From: a virus
Reading direction: 5' to 3' (one strand)
Length of the DNA: 64,000 nucleotides
IMG/VR virus record: IMGVR_UViG_3300037141_000279
Span: 32,296 to 96,295 of that record
Shown: one piece after another, positions 9,239 through 48,192 of the stretch
Layout: the number at the start of each line of letters is the position of its first letter
Numbering within the stretch: the first letter of the stretch is position 1
Made by a program: the position numbers and the translations under genes
Notes under the pieces: generated by a model
The model's input: only the letters and a program-made list of their open reading frames with translations
What the model was told of the DNA's origin: nothing
Database searches by the model: none

Positions 9239-10639
9239 TTACATCATGAGAGACCGCAGCGGAGTCAACCCTTGTACTGAATCCTCCCTGTCTTCGCTCG
9301 CTAATGCCGCCATCAAAGCCATTTGGGCTGATTGGGCTTGCGCCTGAGTTTCTGATGCGGTTATTCCGTAGGCAAAACGATGACCCTGCCAAAGCAACAT
9401 TTCAAACAGCACGTAAGACAGATCATCAGGCCATTGAAAAACCGATTGAGGGCTCGTGAACTTCGGCGACTTCGCCTGATACACGACGTTGAATGCGAAT
9501 GGATATGTGCTGACAGGCTGCGACAACCGAAACTTCACTACACCGTTGCCGTAATCAATTTCGCAAGACAGGTTGACCGCGTCTCCTGTCGATTGGTATT
9601 CAGGTGCGAGCCGATGCACAGCGTCAATCGGAGTCACGGGCAGAGGAAAACTCGGGTTGTTGATATCCACAAGGGCTGCCGATTCCACCCACGCCAAATT
9701 CCAAATTCCTGGTGCACCTGATGCTGCCGCGTGGATCGTCCCACTGTCCGCGCCATTCGTGATGACTACCCCTGTCGGTGTTGTGAACGTCACCGTTGTG
9801 GATGTCGCCGAAAGCAGTGTCACAGTTTTCCCGATCAATCCAGGGTTAATCGCCACGCTCGCGAATGTCATGATGTCGCCCGCCGTCAAGGCGTTTGAAA
9901 CCTGAACTGTCGTCACGCCGCCCGTCGCCGAGATATTCGTGATCGCACCCGACTGCCCTGGCGTCCCCTGCAGCACGATGTGAAAATTATCAGGGATCGC
10001 GATCAAGGTGTAGCTGTCGGTCCACTGGCTGGTCTGAGTCAGTTGATTGTACGTGAACGTGCTGTTGAACGCGGGATTGACGACACCCGCAATAAGAATT
10101 TGTGAAGTGCCGATGTTCCCCACCTGAAACGGATGAGGATCAAGAAATTGAACAGTAAAAGTGCCAGCAACAGGATCAAATACGATACCCGCTGTTTGCC
10201 AGTTCCCTGAAGGACCATAGGAGTTACCCCCATTGAACGGACCGTAGACCACTTTCGCGGCTCCGTTCTGGTACGTCCCTGGGTTCAGGTCAATGCCCGC
10301 GCCGCCTGCTGGCAGTTGTCCGCCAGGAAGCACGCTGTTGATCAGAGCGAAGCAGGACGCACCTGCATGATGAAAATCTTGGAAGCCCATTTGCGTAACA
10401 AAAAAATGAGGGTTTACTGCAGGGTTGTTGGAACCCATCTGGACCCGATTCCACTTCCATGGCATACGCCTCGTCAAAAGCATCTGTTGCACATTTTCCG
10501 AAAGACGCGCCATCGGTTGCATATTGATTCCACCAACCGCGAAAAAATTCTGCAATTTTGTATGAATTTTTAGAGCATCAGCCATGGCCTGCATCGTGGT
10601 CGTCATGTTGACGTTCGGAACCAAATTAAAATTTGCCAT
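9239..10639 (-). CDS. virion structural protein, unknown subtype
   Basis: 466 residues, ATG 10639 with GAGG about 7 bp upstream. N-terminal third: MANFNLVPNVNMTTTMQAMADAL, then a Trp-rich stretch (MPWKWNRVQM). The middle, about residues 215-300, is a Ser/Thr/Val-rich Ig-like beta domain (VQVSNALTAGDIMTFAS...). The C-terminal 90 residues return to a mixed fold with WPDDLSYVLFEMLLWQG. No catalytic motif is seen. Its place between fibre-like and other late genes suggests a tail or neck protein. I do not recognise the family with certainty. Confidence 0.65.
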   Translation of the reverse strand: MANFNLVPNVNMTTTMQAMADALKIHTKLQNFFAVGGINMQPMARLSENVQQMLLTRRMPWKWNRVQMGSNNPAVNPHFFVTQMGFQDFHHAGASCFALINSVLPGGQLPAGGAGIDLNPGTYQNGAAKVVYGPFNGGNSYGPSGNWQTAGIVFDPVAGTFTVQFLDPHPFQVGNIGTSQILIAGVVNPAFNSTFTYNQLTQTSQWTDSYTLIAIPDNFHIVLQGTPGQSGAITNISATGGVTTVQVSNALTAGDIMTFASVAINPGLIGKTVTLLSATSTTVTFTTPTGVVITNGADSGTIHAAASGAPGIWNLAWVESAALVDINNPSFPLPVTPIDAVHRLAPEYQSTGDAVNLSCEIDYGNGVVKFRLSQPVSTYPFAFNVVYQAKSPKFTSPQSVFQWPDDLSYVLFEMLLWQGHRFAYGITASETQAQAQSAQMALMAALASEDREDSVQGLTPLRSLMM

Positions 10640-29441: not shown

Positions 29442-29995
29442 TTTACCCCTCGCTGAACCAAAGAATCAATGCCTCGTTGAATGAATGTGGAAAAGTCACA
29501 CAATGCTTGATAGTATACCATCAAAACCTGCTGTATTTCATTTTGGTCCCAGGTAGGGTCCTCTTTTGCCGCCAACAGTAACTCCATCTTCCCTTGCACA
29601 AATTTGAGCCTCTCTTTCGCCATGCTCAAGCATCGGGTGTCGCCCACATTCAGCGGGGTCAGGGAGATTTCCAAAGATGGAGCTTCGGTATTTTCATACC
29701 CCTCTGGGTTGAACGGGGTGTCTGGATTGTCGGAACTTGATGGAGTTGGGGTGATAATCCCTACCGACTCTTTGTATCTATCTATCCAGTAATAAGCGGT
29801 TTTGGGAGGAATCCCCACTTTATGCCACATTGCATAAAGTCCAGGCTCTCCTCGACGGTTCCCTTGTTTCTTCAATGTTTGCTGCCAATCAAAATTCACG
29901 CGGCCAAAAGCCAGCCCATGTTTGTCCGTGGATTGATATGCCAGCCATGCCGCTTGGATTTGCTGTTCGGCGAGAGTTTGGTCAGTATCCTGCAT
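29438..29995 (-). CDS. hypothetical protein with HTH-like N-terminal half
   Basis: 185 residues from ATG 29995 (14-bp overlap with the previous gene). Begins MQDTDQTLAEQQIQAAW, then GRRGEPGLYAMWHKVGIPP and KTAYYWIDRYKESVG, a helix-turn-helix-like recognition segment. A Pro/Thr-rich linker leads to a helical C-terminal part (RLKFVQGKMELLLAAKED). Possibly a DNA-binding regulator; I do not recognise the family. Confidence 0.6.
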   Translation of the reverse strand: MQDTDQTLAEQQIQAAWLAYQSTDKHGLAFGRVNFDWQQTLKKQGNRRGEPGLYAMWHKVGIPPKTAYYWIDRYKESVGIITPTPSSSDNPDTPFNPEGYENTEAPSLEISLTPLNVGDTRCLSMAKERLKFVQGKMELLLAAKEDPTWDQNEIQQVLMVYYQALCDFSTFIQRGIDSLVQRGVK

Positions 29996-30896
29996 GTTTG
30001 GAATTTCGGCAAGGTGTGTCAAAGTAAGGTAGCCCCCTCTCTAAGTCTTTCACGTAGGCGATCTTGCCTGATTCCTTTTTCATGACGGCAGACCCATCTG
30101 CCAAGGCAGCGTGAAGTTTTTGAGCGATACCGATTCGCTCCGTAGGGATTTTCGGCACCCAAACCCATCGGGTTCCGTGGCGGTGTTTCTCTTCCCGAAG
30201 GATTTTTTTGTCTTCGGGGACCTGATTCCAAAAATCAGGCTCGGAATGGTAGTTGTTGTATTGGTCTAAATTGCGAATGGGATACCGCCGCCCGTTCCAC
30301 CAAATCGCTTTTGTTTTCAGAACCTCTTTGACTTTATGAAACCCAGTGGCTCGATATATCAAACCTGTGTGTTTTCCGTCAGGATGGTCGGCACGTACTT
30401 CGTTCGGGTCGGCGTAGCTGAGGACCCGCTGGATTCCCTCTTGTCGGAGAAGTCGAAACATCACACTAAGCACTCGACTCTCGCTGTTTTTAGGGGCGGC
30501 GTCAAGAAGCACTAATCTCCGCAATTCAACAAGGCGCAGATTCCCATTACCGTTGTATTTACGTAGAGTTTGAGTCTGACCTGGAATTCCAAAAATCGCC
30601 GCCCCAAGCATTCGACCTGTCTGTTTATTAACCACCCGATAAGTATGCGTCGGAGTCATACCTTTGGCTGAGTGAGTGTAATGGTGCGCCACAACAAAAG
30701 CCGCAGCTTCTCGGGCAGAGCACGGCTCGACACAGAATTCTGGAAGTTTTTGTTGACTACCTCCGCTATGGTGTTTGTGAAAATGTTTTTTCCGTTGGTT
30801 GTTGGACGGAAACACAAGACTGCAAACCTCACAAATATGGAGCGGAGGAGGCGGAATCGAACCGCCGTCCACGATAGGACTCGTGTGCTCTGCCAT
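29982..30896 (-). CDS. Mom-like DNA modification protein fused to a C2H2 zinc finger
   Basis: 304 residues. Residues ~21-44 form a C2H2 finger (HICEVCSLVF...KHFHKHH). Residues ~55-200 resemble the GNAT-fold phage Mu Mom family: AAAFVVAHHYTHSAKG, LGAAIFGIPGQ, VELRRLVLLDAAPKNSESRVLS, VLSYADPNEV, HTGLIYRATGFHKV. Mom-type enzymes modify adenine in phage DNA to block restriction. The only start codon before the finger, ATG 30896, lies inside the D-arm of the tRNA-like sequence at 30838-30910, and that tRNA's acceptor bases GGAGG make a well-spaced ribosome binding site. The family is recognised by pattern, not by search. Confidence 0.72.
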   Translation of the reverse strand: MAEHTSPIVDGGSIPPPPLHICEVCSLVFPSNNQRKKHFHKHHSGGSQQKLPEFCVEPCSAREAAAFVVAHHYTHSAKGMTPTHTYRVVNKQTGRMLGAAIFGIPGQTQTLRKYNGNGNLRLVELRRLVLLDAAPKNSESRVLSVMFRLLRQEGIQRVLSYADPNEVRADHPDGKHTGLIYRATGFHKVKEVLKTKAIWWNGRRYPIRNLDQYNNYHSEPDFWNQVPEDKKILREEKHRHGTRWVWVPKIPTERIGIAQKLHAALADGSAVMKKESGKIAYVKDLERGLPYFDTPCRNSKHAGY

Positions 30897-30910
30897 TAAA
30901 CTACCTCCGC
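30838..30910 (-). tRNA. tRNA-like gene, degenerate; anticodon best read as CCT (Arg)
   Basis: Minus strand: acceptor GCGGAGG/CCTCCGC, D-arm GTTT...GAGC, anticodon stem CACGA/TCGTG, T-arm GGCGG-TTCGATT-CCGCC, encoded TCCA end. The anomalies are a 6-base anticodon loop (GTCCTA), a 3-base variable region and one extra base between the T-stem and acceptor. It may be a decayed or recruited tRNA. It overlaps the start of the Mom-like gene. Confidence 0.6.
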
Positions 30911-30923
30911 ACTACCTACTTTA

Positions 30924-31586
30924 TCAAACCGATGCAGGGATGTCAACTGAAATCGACATCCCTTCCCGAAAATCTTCAACGAAGCGTTCGGGGACTCGGG
31001 CAAAAATGGAATCAAGGTCCTGAACCTTCCCGAGTTTGAATTTTAACTCGTCGAGCAAGAAATCCAGAACGAATTCCCGAGCCTGCATGCTGACTTTGTC
31101 AGAATTATCATGGTAAACCGTGCTTACCACCTGGGTTGCGTCGAGGAGTTGGTTCCCCATCCCGTGGTTATCCGCTACGACGGAGAAGGATCGTCCTTGG
31201 GTGGCGTCGGTGCTCACGGTCAAGGTCTCGCCGACCTCATAGTCCACGTGGTGTGCGTCGAGCAGGTTTTTGGTATCATCGAATGATTTGGGTGGGGTGG
31301 AGACATGGAACTTTGCTTCATGTGACGCCAGCCATCCCGCGATGCGGTATGCGATAGGGCTTTGGCGAATCACATTAACGCTGGATTGATACTTCTCTTC
31401 TCGGGTGAGTTTCGGGGCGGGAGCAGGGGATAGCGCCAGTAGGTTCCACGCACCCTCAAAGCCGTCTTTGAGTAAGCGTAATCGAACCCAAAAAGGTTCC
31501 GCAGGAAGGGTGTCTATAACTTGAGCCTTGCCTTCTCCTCTTACTTTAACCCAGGCTCCAACTTTCAAATCATCTTTGCTCATCAT
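30924..31586 (-). CDS. hypothetical protein with SH3-like N-terminus
   Basis: 220 residues, ATG 31586 with AAGGAG upstream. The N-terminal 50 residues look like a KOW/SH3-type barrel (LKVGAWVKVRGEGKAQVID, PFWVRLRLLKDGFEG). Then a Pro/Ala linker and a larger domain with DDTKNLLDAHHVDYEVG and HDNSDKVSMQAREFVLDFLLDE. No enzyme motif recognised. Lies just upstream of the tRNA-like element in the replication interval. Confidence 0.6.
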   Translation of the reverse strand: MMSKDDLKVGAWVKVRGEGKAQVIDTLPAEPFWVRLRLLKDGFEGAWNLLALSPAPAPKLTREEKYQSSVNVIRQSPIAYRIAGWLASHEAKFHVSTPPKSFDDTKNLLDAHHVDYEVGETLTVSTDATQGRSFSVVADNHGMGNQLLDATQVVSTVYHDNSDKVSMQAREFVLDFLLDELKFKLGKVQDLDSIFARVPERFVEDFREGMSISVDIPASV

Positions 31587-32153: not shown

Positions 32154-33730
32154 ACAAAAAGTTTATGCTGTTCCTGCAGTCGATCCACGTCAGTGGCGTG
32201 TTCCCTTAATTTGTCGAGAATTTCGTCCGTGAGATACTTCCGTAGATACGGCGACGGTGTCCCTGCGAACGAGATGCGCAGCATGTCAATGGCGCGCGAG
32301 ATCGCCACAAAATAAATGCGTTTCTCCTCGGTCGGGTCGCCCTTCGTGTGCGGGAACCCTTTGGCGTTCGCGCCGATCACGTAGACGTTGCGCCATTCAC
32401 CTCCTTTTGATTGATGTACAGTCGAAATTGAGACGCCCTTCGGGTCGTTGCGGCGGTGCATCATCTTGTTCGCATACACACAGAAATCTTTCGCCATACG
32501 AAAATCTTTGCCGATCAGGCGAATCACTTTCAAATTCTCCAGAGCGTCGTTGTCTCGTTCTGTCCGATCCTCCACCGCGTACTTGGATTCCAGGTGCGGC
32601 AGTGTGAGATTGAACGCGACTTCCGTTGACATCGTCGGATAATCTTTCAGCGCCTCAACTGCCTTGCGAATCTCGTTCTGCTTCCAGAAGCCTGATTTCC
32701 CCATCAGGTGGTATCGGATGCTGTATCGATTGCACAGACGCTCCAGCAGGCCGACCATTCTATTCGTGCGGGCAAGAATAATTGAATTGAGCGGGTCTTT
32801 CTGCGCCAGCGCCAGGGCGGACTCAGCCTCAGCGTCGTCAGACCAATACATCTTCAGCGATATCGGCGCGCCCTTGACGTTCCGCGCAGCCTTCATGCGA
32901 TCAAGCAGTTCCTTCGGCGTGTCTTCAGGCGCGTTTTCGCGCACGAAGTCGACGATGTTCTGCGTGCTGCGATAGTTCAGCCCAAGGTAAAACTTCTTGC
33001 CTGCTGGAAACCACTGTTCGAAGTTGGTGATGTTGTCAGGCTTCGCTCCACGGAATCCGTAGATCGCTTGGTTCGGGTCTCCGACCACGGTGATGTTGCC
33101 GTGCTTCTCGGTCATCAACTGCATCATGCGCCATTGCAGATCGTCGGTGTCCTGGGCCTCGTCGACGATCATGTATTTCGGCTGCCACCGCGCGCGACAC
33201 TGCGGATTCTTTTCAAGCATGTCGACGGAGTCGCGGAGCATCGAGTCGAAATCCATCCATCCTTCCGCCGCTCGGGTGTTCTCATACATCACATATGCGC
33301 TGGCGTAACCATATTCATATTCGCCGCTCTCCATCGCTTCGGTCGGACTGACATTCGCGCGCCGCATCTTCGCGATGAAGTGGTCGAGTTCTTTGTAATC
33401 CAGTCCCCACTTCTTGCAGAGGCGACACATCAGACGATATCGGAGTTCGGGTTCGACAGGTTTACGTTCAACTTCCGAGCAGATCAAATATCCCAGGCTG
33501 TGGAATGTGGACACCACGCCTTTTACTCCTGCCCGCTTTTCCAATGCGCCTGCCATTTCTTTGGAGAACGTGACGGCTCGAATTTCGGAGGGGCTGACGC
33601 CAGATTCAATCAACGTGTTGATAAACGCCACCATGGTTGCGGTTTTGCCGCTTCCTGGTCCTGCGACGACAGATCGGGGTCCGTCAGGGCTGTCAATGAT
33701 GCCCTGCTGATCAACGTTCAGTTCGGTCAC
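32150..33730 (-). CDS. UvrD/Rep-type superfamily 1 DNA helicase
   Basis: 526 residues from GTG 33730, with GAGG 6 bp upstream. Motifs in order: NVDQQGIIDSP (Q motif), VVAGPGSGKTATM (Walker A), AVTFSKEMAGALEKR (Ia), YMIVDEAQDTDDLQW (Walker B), ITVVGDPNQAIYGFRGA (III), LGLNYRSTQNIVDF (IV), STVHQSKGGEWRNVYVIG (V) and RIYFVAISRAID (VI). A 3'-5' ssDNA translocase that unwinds DNA in replication or repair. It is somewhat short for UvrD, consistent with a phage version. It overlaps the candidate nuclease gene downstream. Confidence 0.93.
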   Translation of the reverse strand: MTELNVDQQGIIDSPDGPRSVVAGPGSGKTATMVAFINTLIESGVSPSEIRAVTFSKEMAGALEKRAGVKGVVSTFHSLGYLICSEVERKPVEPELRYRLMCRLCKKWGLDYKELDHFIAKMRRANVSPTEAMESGEYEYGYASAYVMYENTRAAEGWMDFDSMLRDSVDMLEKNPQCRARWQPKYMIVDEAQDTDDLQWRMMQLMTEKHGNITVVGDPNQAIYGFRGAKPDNITNFEQWFPAGKKFYLGLNYRSTQNIVDFVRENAPEDTPKELLDRMKAARNVKGAPISLKMYWSDDAEAESALALAQKDPLNSIILARTNRMVGLLERLCNRYSIRYHLMGKSGFWKQNEIRKAVEALKDYPTMSTEVAFNLTLPHLESKYAVEDRTERDNDALENLKVIRLIGKDFRMAKDFCVYANKMMHRRNDPKGVSISTVHQSKGGEWRNVYVIGANAKGFPHTKGDPTEEKRIYFVAISRAIDMLRISFAGTPSPYLRKYLTDEILDKLREHATDVDRLQEQHKLFV

Positions 33731-47261: not shown

Positions 47262-47335
47262 TGGAGCCCAATCGACGAATCGAACGCCAGTCTCGGAGGT
47301 ACAGGCTCCGCGTCCTGCCACTGAACGAATCGGGC
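47262..47335 (-). tRNA. tRNA-Thr (TGT)
   Basis: Cloverleaf on the minus strand: acceptor GCCCGAT/ATTGGGC, D-stem GTTC/GGAC, anticodon stem CGGAG/CTCCG with loop CCTGTAC (anticodon TGT), T-arm TGGCG-TTCGATT-CGTCG, encoded CCA. Position 33 is C instead of the nearly invariant T. Confidence 0.8.
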
Positions 47336-47343
47336 TCAAACTC

Positions 47344-47372
47344 ATCATACCGCGCGCCGCGCGCGCTGTCAA
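47344..47372 (-). promoter_or_regulatory. sigma70-type promoter before tRNA-Thr
   Basis: Minus strand TTGACA (47367-47372), a 17-bp spacer made only of G and C, TATGAT (47344-47349). The expected start is at the 5' end of tRNA-Thr, so it would drive that tRNA and the phosphatase and polyvalent protein genes. Confidence 0.75.
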
Positions 47373-47380
47373 TCAAAATA

Positions 47381-47454
47381 TGGAGCGAGACCTGGGGTTT
47401 GAACCCAGGCTTTCAGTTTGGAAGACTGACGTGCAGCCGCTACACTAGTCCCGC
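47381..47454 (-). tRNA. tRNA-Gly (TCC)
   Basis: Acceptor GCGGGAC/GTCTCGC, D-stem GTGT/GCAC, anticodon stem TCAGT/ACTGA with loop CTTCCAA (anticodon TCC), T-arm CTGGG-TTCAAAC-CCCAG, discriminator T and encoded CCA. Confidence 0.9.
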
Positions 47455-47464
47455 TTAGAAAATT

Positions 47465-47541
47465 TGGTTGCGAGGGCTGGATTTGAACCAGCGACCTGTT
47501 GCTTATGAGGCAACCGAGCTACCAGACTGCTCCACCTCGCA
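47465..47541 (-). tRNA. tRNA-Met (CAT)
   Basis: Acceptor TGCGAGG/CCTCGCA, D-arm GGAGCAGTCTGGTAGCTC (as in bacterial initiator tRNA), anticodon stem GTTGC/GCAAC with loop CTCATAA, T-arm CTGG-TTCAAAT-CCAG, encoded ACCA. It has a paired 1-72 position, so elongator use is likely despite the initiator-like D-arm. Confidence 0.92.
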
Positions 47542-47587
47542 CCAGTTTGGTCGGAACCCTGCGTGAAACTTACCCGACCATGATATT

Positions 47588-47935
47588 TTAGTACTTCAAT
47601 TTATAAGATTCAAGCAGTCCAGCGGCACCCTCTTGCTTGATAATCTCCCACCAACCTAACATCAAATTGCAGCGAGAGCAAATCCAGCCGCGTCGTAAAC
47701 CTGTCTTATGGTTATGATCCTGACGAAGCTGCAGAATTCGTAAACAAATCTCACAAGGGGCCTTTTTCGTCTCTCCAGTGGCGTTTAACACGCCTCGCGC
47801 TGTTCGGCGGCGCTTGCGCCGACCATCTGGATTACTCTTCCTCCAGTCCTTAGTGCGTTGAATACATAAGGTCTGGTGTGCAACGTACCACTCATGCTTC
47901 TTAACTTTGTCGTGCTCGGTCGGTACTCGTTTCAT
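47588..47935 (-). CDS. endonuclease VII-like homing endonuclease in the tRNA cluster
   Basis: 115 residues, ATG 47935. A very basic N-terminus (KVKKHEWYVAHQ, DGRRKRRRTARG) is followed by a compact core: APCEICLRILQLRQDHNHKTG, LRRGWICSRCNLMLGWWE. The CxxC...DHxHxT...CxxCN pattern marks endonuclease VII relatives. No ribosome binding site; a promoter ends 6 bases before the ATG. Inserted between tRNA-Ala and tRNA-Met. Confidence 0.85.
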   Translation of the reverse strand: MKRVPTEHDKVKKHEWYVAHQTLCIQRTKDWRKSNPDGRRKRRRTARGVLNATGETKKAPCEICLRILQLRQDHNHKTGLRRGWICSRCNLMLGWWEIIKQEGAAGLLESYKLKY

Positions 47936-47941
47936 AACCCC

Positions 47942-47970
47942 ATCATAACCTCTTTCAGGGGGATTTGCAA
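47942..47970 (-). promoter_or_regulatory. leaderless promoter of the endonuclease in the tRNA cluster
   Basis: Minus strand TTGCAA (47965-47970), 17 bp, TATGAT (47942-47947), then 6 bases to ATG 47935. The rest of the gap up to the tRNA at 48119 holds only a small hairpin (GGTGT-AAA-ACACC, near 48035) and no gene I can support. Confidence 0.65.
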
Positions 47971-48118
47971 CAAAATAGTGATGGTCTGCGCGACGGCCCG
48001 GTTACCGAAACCTATTCTTGCCGCCGCGCGCCATCCGTGGTGTTTTACACCGTTGACCTGGGGAAAGCCGTCCGTTACCACCATCGGCACATTTCGGATT
48101 CACGACCCAGTTCAAATT

Positions 48119-48192
48119 TGGTGGACATGGCGAGAATCGGACTCGCATCCCCTGCTTGCAAAGCAGGTCGTCTCCCGTTGACATACACGCCC
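48119..48192 (-). tRNA. tRNA-Ala (TGC)
   Basis: Acceptor GGGCGTG/CATGTCC with two G.T pairs, anticodon stem CCTGC/GCAGG with loop TTTGCAA (anticodon TGC), T-arm GCGAG-TCCGATT-CTCGC, discriminator A and encoded CCA. Confidence 0.88.

Follow-up and report, generated by a model that had tools for sequence, protein, structure and literature searches.

The mom-like gene and its tRNA-like start region

The stretch of DNA analysed here, referred to as the window, comprises 64,000 nucleotides of the viral record IMGVR_UViG_3300037141_000279 (positions 32,296 to 96,295) and contains a mom-like gene that begins within a tRNA-Gly-like RNA encoded on the same strand (Table 1). The first-pass annotation had placed the start codon in the D-arm of this RNA and its ribosome binding site in the acceptor stem, and both are found there: the ATG is formed by RNA bases 15-17, and the GGAGG at bases 3-7 precedes it with a spacer of 7 nt, tRNA and mRNA sharing one stretch of DNA. 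An in-frame stop codon (TAG) is located upstream of the ATG. No ATG, GTG or TTG occurs in frame between the element and the downstream zinc finger-like motif, again in agreement with the annotation; an in-frame GTG is present at codon 9, within the element itself. The sigma-70-type promoter in front of the RNA was found once, with 0.1 occurrences expected by chance. As a general feature an own promoter was rejected, because a strong one is present in only about 6 of 97 copies of the element. There is no com gene upstream of the window mom, and the upstream ORF (30924-31586) has no family match.

Table 1. Features of the mom-like locus in the window (window coordinates)
Feature	Position	Strand	Evidence
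mom-like ORF, 304 aa, ATG in D-loop of tRNA-like RNA	29982..30896	-	ORF list, PF25680, PHROG 1384, profile and fold match to 8bv8
Mom (GNAT) domain, residues 54-236	30189..30737	-	PF25680, predicted structure, fold match
ORF part encoded by tRNA-like RNA, residues 1-20	30838..30896	-	AlphaFold pLDDT <50, predicted disordered
C2H2-like motif CEVC...HFHKHH	30768..30833	-	letters of the sequence; unique to window phage in sample
tRNA-Gly-like RNA	30838..30910	-	ARAGORN, RF00005, covariance model R1, T-stem register check
GGAGG, acceptor bases 3-7 and Shine-Dalgarno sequence of mom	30904..30908	-	sequence; group comparison
Sigma-70-type promoter TTGACA-17-TAAAGT, TG before second hexamer, ends 7 nt before RNA	30918..30946	-	motif search

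The RNA of the window has the acceptor stem GCGGAGG/CCTCCGC, U73, an encoded CCA end, a 6-nt anticodon loop (GTCCTA) and an additional nucleotide, which lies in the 3' strand of the T-stem or where this stem joins the acceptor and can be bulged or drawn unpaired between two regular stems. G18G19 is kept as GG, as in most of the alignment of the element (A6). All bases of the bacterial glycine identity set, i.e. U73, G1-C72, C2-G71, G3-C70, C35 and C36 (PMC9976931), are present. ARAGORN reports the element as 'tRNA-???' with the anticodon 'cc', and with the Rfam tRNA model (RF00005) it scores 26.6 bits, under the gathering score of 29; the covariance model R1 scores it with 63.3 bits (E=1e-13). 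The window phage also possesses an ordinary tRNA cluster at 47262-48192 (Thr, Gly-TCC, Met, Ala), and a normal tRNA-Gly is thus available in addition.

That the ORF encodes a protein of the Mom family, as had been suggested, is borne out by matches to PF25680 (Mom; E=4.8e-22, 79.1 bits, curated cut-off 27.1) and to PHROG 1384, 'Mom-like DNA modification protein' (E=1e-29), and by a profile (A7) that matches Mu Mom (PDB 8bv8) with E=5e-25. Structure prediction against Mom, which the first-pass annotation had proposed as a check, gave the same result: the AlphaFold model (mean pLDDT 83) has the GNAT fold of Mu Mom and matches 8bv8 in a Foldseek search with E=1.3e-11. The next matches after Mu Mom are ordinary acetyl-CoA GNATs and not Fem or L/F transferases. 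The fusion of a zinc finger to Mom, which the annotation had considered unusual, is indeed confined to the window phage among 315 Mom-containing frames examined, the finger itself being recognizable as a C2H2-like motif in the letters of the sequence but not matched by any family model. The zinc finger is therefore outside the conserved RNA-Mom system and was rejected as a shared feature of Mom proteins; a match of Aeromonas P19 that seemed to extend into the finger was spurious. Just after the finger motif, at 30757-30767, there is an 11-nt exact repeat of the 5' end of the RNA (GCGGAGGTAGT, minus strand), as if a copy of the element start marked a former junction. Searches with strict peptide patterns yielded no close relatives of the window protein, and positions 1-25000 of the window have no near match among phage records.

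Related phages and individual loci

Relatives of the window phage were found in IMG/VR via the helicase. Two of them (L013, L014) contain an element of this kind at the corresponding locus. The proteins behind it, Mom in L013 (PF25680, 1e-29) and a DruA-like protein in L014 (PF14236, 1e-9), differ downstream of a common CCA junction. Two sister phages (L012, L015) carry the DruA-like gene without the element; there it starts at M(M/K)PELYL, and the element therefore adds about 20 residues. In L034, a diverged element missed by ARAGORN provides a D-arm ATG that opens a DruA-like frame and overlaps the stop codon of the upstream gene as TAATG. DruA is a distantly related sister family of Mom (hhalign, E=1.7e-5), and we know of no earlier link between DruA and a tRNA-like RNA. 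The arrangement in the window is more than chance, as it is found again in related phages, there with different proteins downstream, and across many further phages. In L018 (6001-8403) and L019 (6001-8415) about 750 bp, an intein or an insertion, interrupt the helicase gene after about residue 181, and a RelA/SpoT-domain protein occupies the variable slot between helicase and exonuclease in L013 (7880-8380).

Mom loci found via the protein added further elements (L039, L095, L118, L119, L120/L121, L125/L136, L192). In L039 the element lies within the N-terminal coding part of mom; in L095 mom begins right after the element, which has A73 instead of U73; and in L119 the element stands alone with its own promoter, the mom start being located after it. 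The element of L118 (about 980-1083) is separate, lies upstream of mom and is enlarged to about 104 nt by extra hairpins in the D-arm region, with the acceptor start and the T-stem insertion kept. In L192 (2007-3324), a phage rich in ordinary tRNA genes, the RNA is situated between two tandem mom genes. L257 (1158-1625) and L281 (4029-4235) are loci at which the RNA opens frames (GGSIPTSPLQ...) into proteins that match no family; these could be additional partners or mom genes in decay. A variant tRNA-like element with a regular T-stem and a very short anticodon loop (L017:8634-8703; R1, 37.9 bits) lies one gene upstream of a weakly DruA-like ORF (9325-10341). In Synechococcus phage DSL-LC03 (L007:1421-2591) mom adjoins an annotated type II restriction endonuclease.

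Genetic linkage of the RNA class to mom

The 3' strand of the T-stem seemed to carry an additional nucleotide (CCG-A-CC) in all copies, and tRNA-Gly-like RNAs with this oddity were sought by a pattern scan in which no protein information was used. At least 120 stretches in the viral collection match this pattern, as do 12 in bacterial and archaeal genomes (257 Gb), 8 of these 12 being tRNA-shaped; the matches on bacterial contigs L316, L319, L322 and L325 are not. Hidden Markov models built from Mom alignments detected Mom at 107 of the 117 viral loci listed and at all 8 tRNA-shaped genome loci. The matches listed comprise 98 distinct RNAs, and 88 of these have mom directly adjacent on the same strand, either downstream (68 RNAs, within 205 nt) or upstream (20 RNAs, within 140 nt). 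Mom is far away in one case, lacking in nine, and never antisense. Two of the nine RNAs without Mom (L313, L214) adjoin truncated Mom C-termini, L214 weakly (E=0.006), and three (L234, L277, L295) are located at contig ends; L300, with only one outer T pair in the bulged register, and L212, with an acceptor mismatch, both without mom, are probably not members of the class.

When RNAs with more than 84% similarity are collapsed, the matches listed reduce to 36 RNAs, of which 27 are adjacent to Mom and 4 more lie at contig ends. For comparison, tblastn searches with two Mom proteins retrieved 58 and 165 of 50,697 phage records, a rate that describes how frequent Mom is across phage records in general. 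The RNA-linked Mom proteins of the matches listed fall into 24 clusters at 50% identity. These data demonstrate a genetic linkage between the RNA and mom, and the window, with a mom gene adjacent on the same strand and the extra T-stem nucleotide, is one such pair. Viewed from the protein, the element is present at about 10 of 160 Mom loci, most Mom genes having no element nearby, and R1 detects nothing in 7 of 11 named Mom phages.

Fold and glycine identity of the RNA

In a gapless alignment of 17 diverse copies, 97% of the cells are paired and 16 of 22 pairs show compensatory changes (covariation 0.648, compared to 0.224 in shuffled alignments). These changes support the cloverleaf fold and selection on the RNA, and on this basis a tRNA remnant was rejected. 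The outer pairs of the T-stem form with a bulge in 97 of the 98 distinct RNAs listed, and in the normal register in a single one. Since the pattern itself contains the insertion, elements found without it are informative: 9 of these 10 have the insertion, while L119 is not clear. Ordinary tRNA-Gly genes (L025, L103) have a regular T-stem without it. The T-stem register was used as criterion because members of the class and ordinary tRNAs cannot be told apart by their R1 scores alone (62 bits for L025).

The anticodon loop comprises 6 nt in 61 of the 98 RNAs listed (typically NUUCCA) and 7 nt in 16, and contains CC in 96. The GCGG start, U73 and CCA are partly imposed by the scan pattern, but all three are also present in the window copy and in all but one (L095) of the copies detected by searches that left these bases free. 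ARAGORN detects 61 of the 98 RNAs listed and labels 16 of them tRNA-Gly, and Rfam tRNA scores of other copies are about 30-32 or below the cut-off, which may explain why this class went unnoticed.

Overlap of the RNA with the start of mom

Among the 68 RNAs listed that precede mom, the Mom frame is open through the RNA in 64, no start codon exists between RNA and Mom domain in 46, and a start codon is found at RNA position 14-18 in 43. The acceptor matches the Shine-Dalgarno sequence over a mean of 5.1 nt where a D-loop start opens mom, and over 3.2 nt where the RNA lies 3' of mom (p=1.4e-6, an indicative value because the sequences are related and not independent). The start codon and ribosome binding site inside the tRNA are thus real and probably selected. 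However, because the RNA is the same when it is located behind mom, the overlap with the mom start is a secondary adaptation. Nor is the RNA essentially an mRNA leader, as it is also found behind mom or standing alone (L119); it is conserved for something else. The suggestion of the first-pass annotation that the tRNA fold was recruited to control the gene is hence not supported as its main function.

A possible role as glycine donor

Judged from these sequence features, the reading that we consider best, and slightly more probable than its opposite, is that the RNA is a dedicated, non-decoding tRNA-Gly which donates glycine to DNA modifiers of the Mom family. It is suggested by the combination of glycine identity, non-decoding loop, altered T-stem and Mom as neighbour. 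The more general proposal seems to us evenly balanced: glycyl-tRNA might serve as a donor in DNA hypermodification, supplied by a dedicated tRNA-Gly outside translation that is encoded inside or beside the gene of the enzyme, with a D-loop start through which a transcript could become donor RNA or mRNA. Fem and L/F transferases, which have a GNAT-like fold, use aminoacyl-tRNA.

According to this model, transcription, either together with mom or beside it, would be followed by maturation of the RNA to a tRNA with a CCA end, which the retained glycine identity bases would allow the host GlyRS to charge. The T-stem insertion and the non-standard anticodon loop would keep the resulting Gly-tRNA from EF-Tu and the ribosome; EF-Tu is sensitive to the T-stem pairs 49-65 and 51-63 (PMC4052509), which flank the insertion. 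Mom would then move glycine from the RNA to N6 of adenine in phage DNA. The glycyl-N6 adduct would be an isomer of N6-glycinamide (carbamoylmethyl) adenine, into which a Smiles-type shift could convert it. The known product of Mom is N6-glycinamide-adenine, whose added group is an isomer of glycine. Where the RNA comes first, the D-loop ATG and the acceptor GGAGG/GGTGAT would have been taken over as start and ribosome binding site of mom, such that one transcript could yield either the enzyme or the donor RNA. In phages without the element, a host tRNA-Gly or another donor would serve Mom.

Several points count against a glycine donor. The element is absent near most Mom genes, fold matches after Mu Mom are acetyl-CoA GNATs, L095 has A73, and momylation has been ascribed to an acyl-CoA such as glycyl-CoA, a hypothesis in that work (PMC7824862). 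For the window, the T-stem argument is weakened because the extra nucleotide may sit unpaired between regular stems. No link between Mom and a tRNA was found in the mostly open-access literature searched, and an earlier proposal of a tRNA donor may exist elsewhere.

There are other conceivable explanations. The fold might be a translational switch that hides the Shine-Dalgarno sequence and start codon of mom, with folding, processing or binding of Mom or a host factor timing Mom synthesis, in parallel to the translation-inhibition structure and Com of Mu mom. Both signals do lie within the fold in the window, the D-loop position of the start (43 of 68 listed) and the lack of any other start before the Mom domain (46 of 68) are frequent, Shine-Dalgarno strength tracks the D-loop-start arrangement, and translation of Mu mom is activated by the zinc-finger protein Com (PMC6483171). 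We nevertheless regard such a switch as unlikely, since RNAs with the same T-stem insertion are located 3' of mom in 20 of the 98 listed cases and separately in L119, and since glycine identity bases and a CC anticodon loop are not needed for switching. An RNA cofactor or activator of Mom that acts without glycine (as scaffold, guide, allosteric activator or anti-inhibitor) would equally be expected to be tightly linked to mom, whichever of the two comes first, and linkage alone cannot separate donor from cofactor; such a role seems rather unlikely to us, as it leaves the kept glycine identity bases, the CC loop and the CCA end unexplained.

Mom-like proteins could also modify or acylate the tRNA instead of DNA. 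GNAT enzymes that acetylate aminoacyl-tRNA exist in the form of TacT-type toxins, and gene and RNA adjoin, but the RNA is an improbable substrate, given that Mu Mom, to whose family these proteins belong, modifies DNA and that a large number of phage mom genes from this family lack such an RNA in their vicinity. Phages often carry tRNA genes, and the tRNA-Gly label that ARAGORN gives to 16 of the 98 RNAs listed would fit ordinary decoding genes, or remnants of these, packed beside mom by chance. This is highly improbable in view of the adjacency to mom (88 of 98), the T-stem insertion (97 of 98), an anticodon loop that is mostly not 7 nt long and compensatory evolution, which argues against decay, while L025 and L103 show the regular T-stem of ordinary genes. 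The lowest probability of all is assigned to a recombination or attachment site with mom-type cargo: although Mom or DruA-like proteins follow the same CCA junction in relatives of the window phage, hardly any other cargo is seen, and the compensatory changes reflect selection on the RNA.

For the glycine donor of Mom, the literature found offers only the acyl-CoA guess (PMC7824862), and the linked tRNA-Gly-like RNA makes the identity of this donor directly testable. If the RNA is indeed the donor, tRNA charging would be joined to DNA modification, for which no precedent was found in the literature searched, and by extension the anti-phage DruA family may also use aminoacyl-tRNA. The class explains widespread odd phage tRNAs that standard tools label 'tRNA-???' or miss. 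It also exemplifies how the ribosome binding site, start codon and N-terminal codons of a gene can be provided by a functional RNA.

Comparison with known systems

Mu Mom and the window protein belong to the same family and have the same fold, and Mu Mom shares the motifs HYS, E-L-R, N-S/T-E, S-AD and G-Y-A with the proteins described here. The leader of Mu mom, however, depends on Com, and no tRNA partner of Mu mom is known, whereas here a tRNA-Gly-like RNA overlaps the gene. The control of Mu mom by Com resembles our locus in the RNA structure around the mom start and in a zinc finger nearby, but differs in that no Com was found, the finger is fused to Mom in the window phage only, and RNAs of the class can be located behind mom as well. 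The proteins behind the element in L014 and L034 resemble DruA (PF14236) of Druantia, here in a phage setting. With phage tRNA-Gly genes the element has in common the cloverleaf, G1-C72, C2-G71, U73, CCA and T-loop, and it is distinguished from them by the extra T-stem nucleotide, an anticodon loop of mostly other than 7 nt and mom as a near-constant neighbour. In Staphylococcus aureus, non-proteinogenic tRNA-Gly supplies Fem enzymes and probably avoids EF-Tu by means of T-stem changes (PMC4052509). If our model is right, the phage RNA would work likewise, as a tRNA-Gly with a changed T-stem that is kept from EF-Tu and serves an aminoacyl transferase; the S. aureus tRNAs show base-pair substitutions and loss of G18G19 in place of the inserted nucleotide and kept GG found here, and the product of FemXAB is peptidoglycan, whereas here it would be modified DNA.
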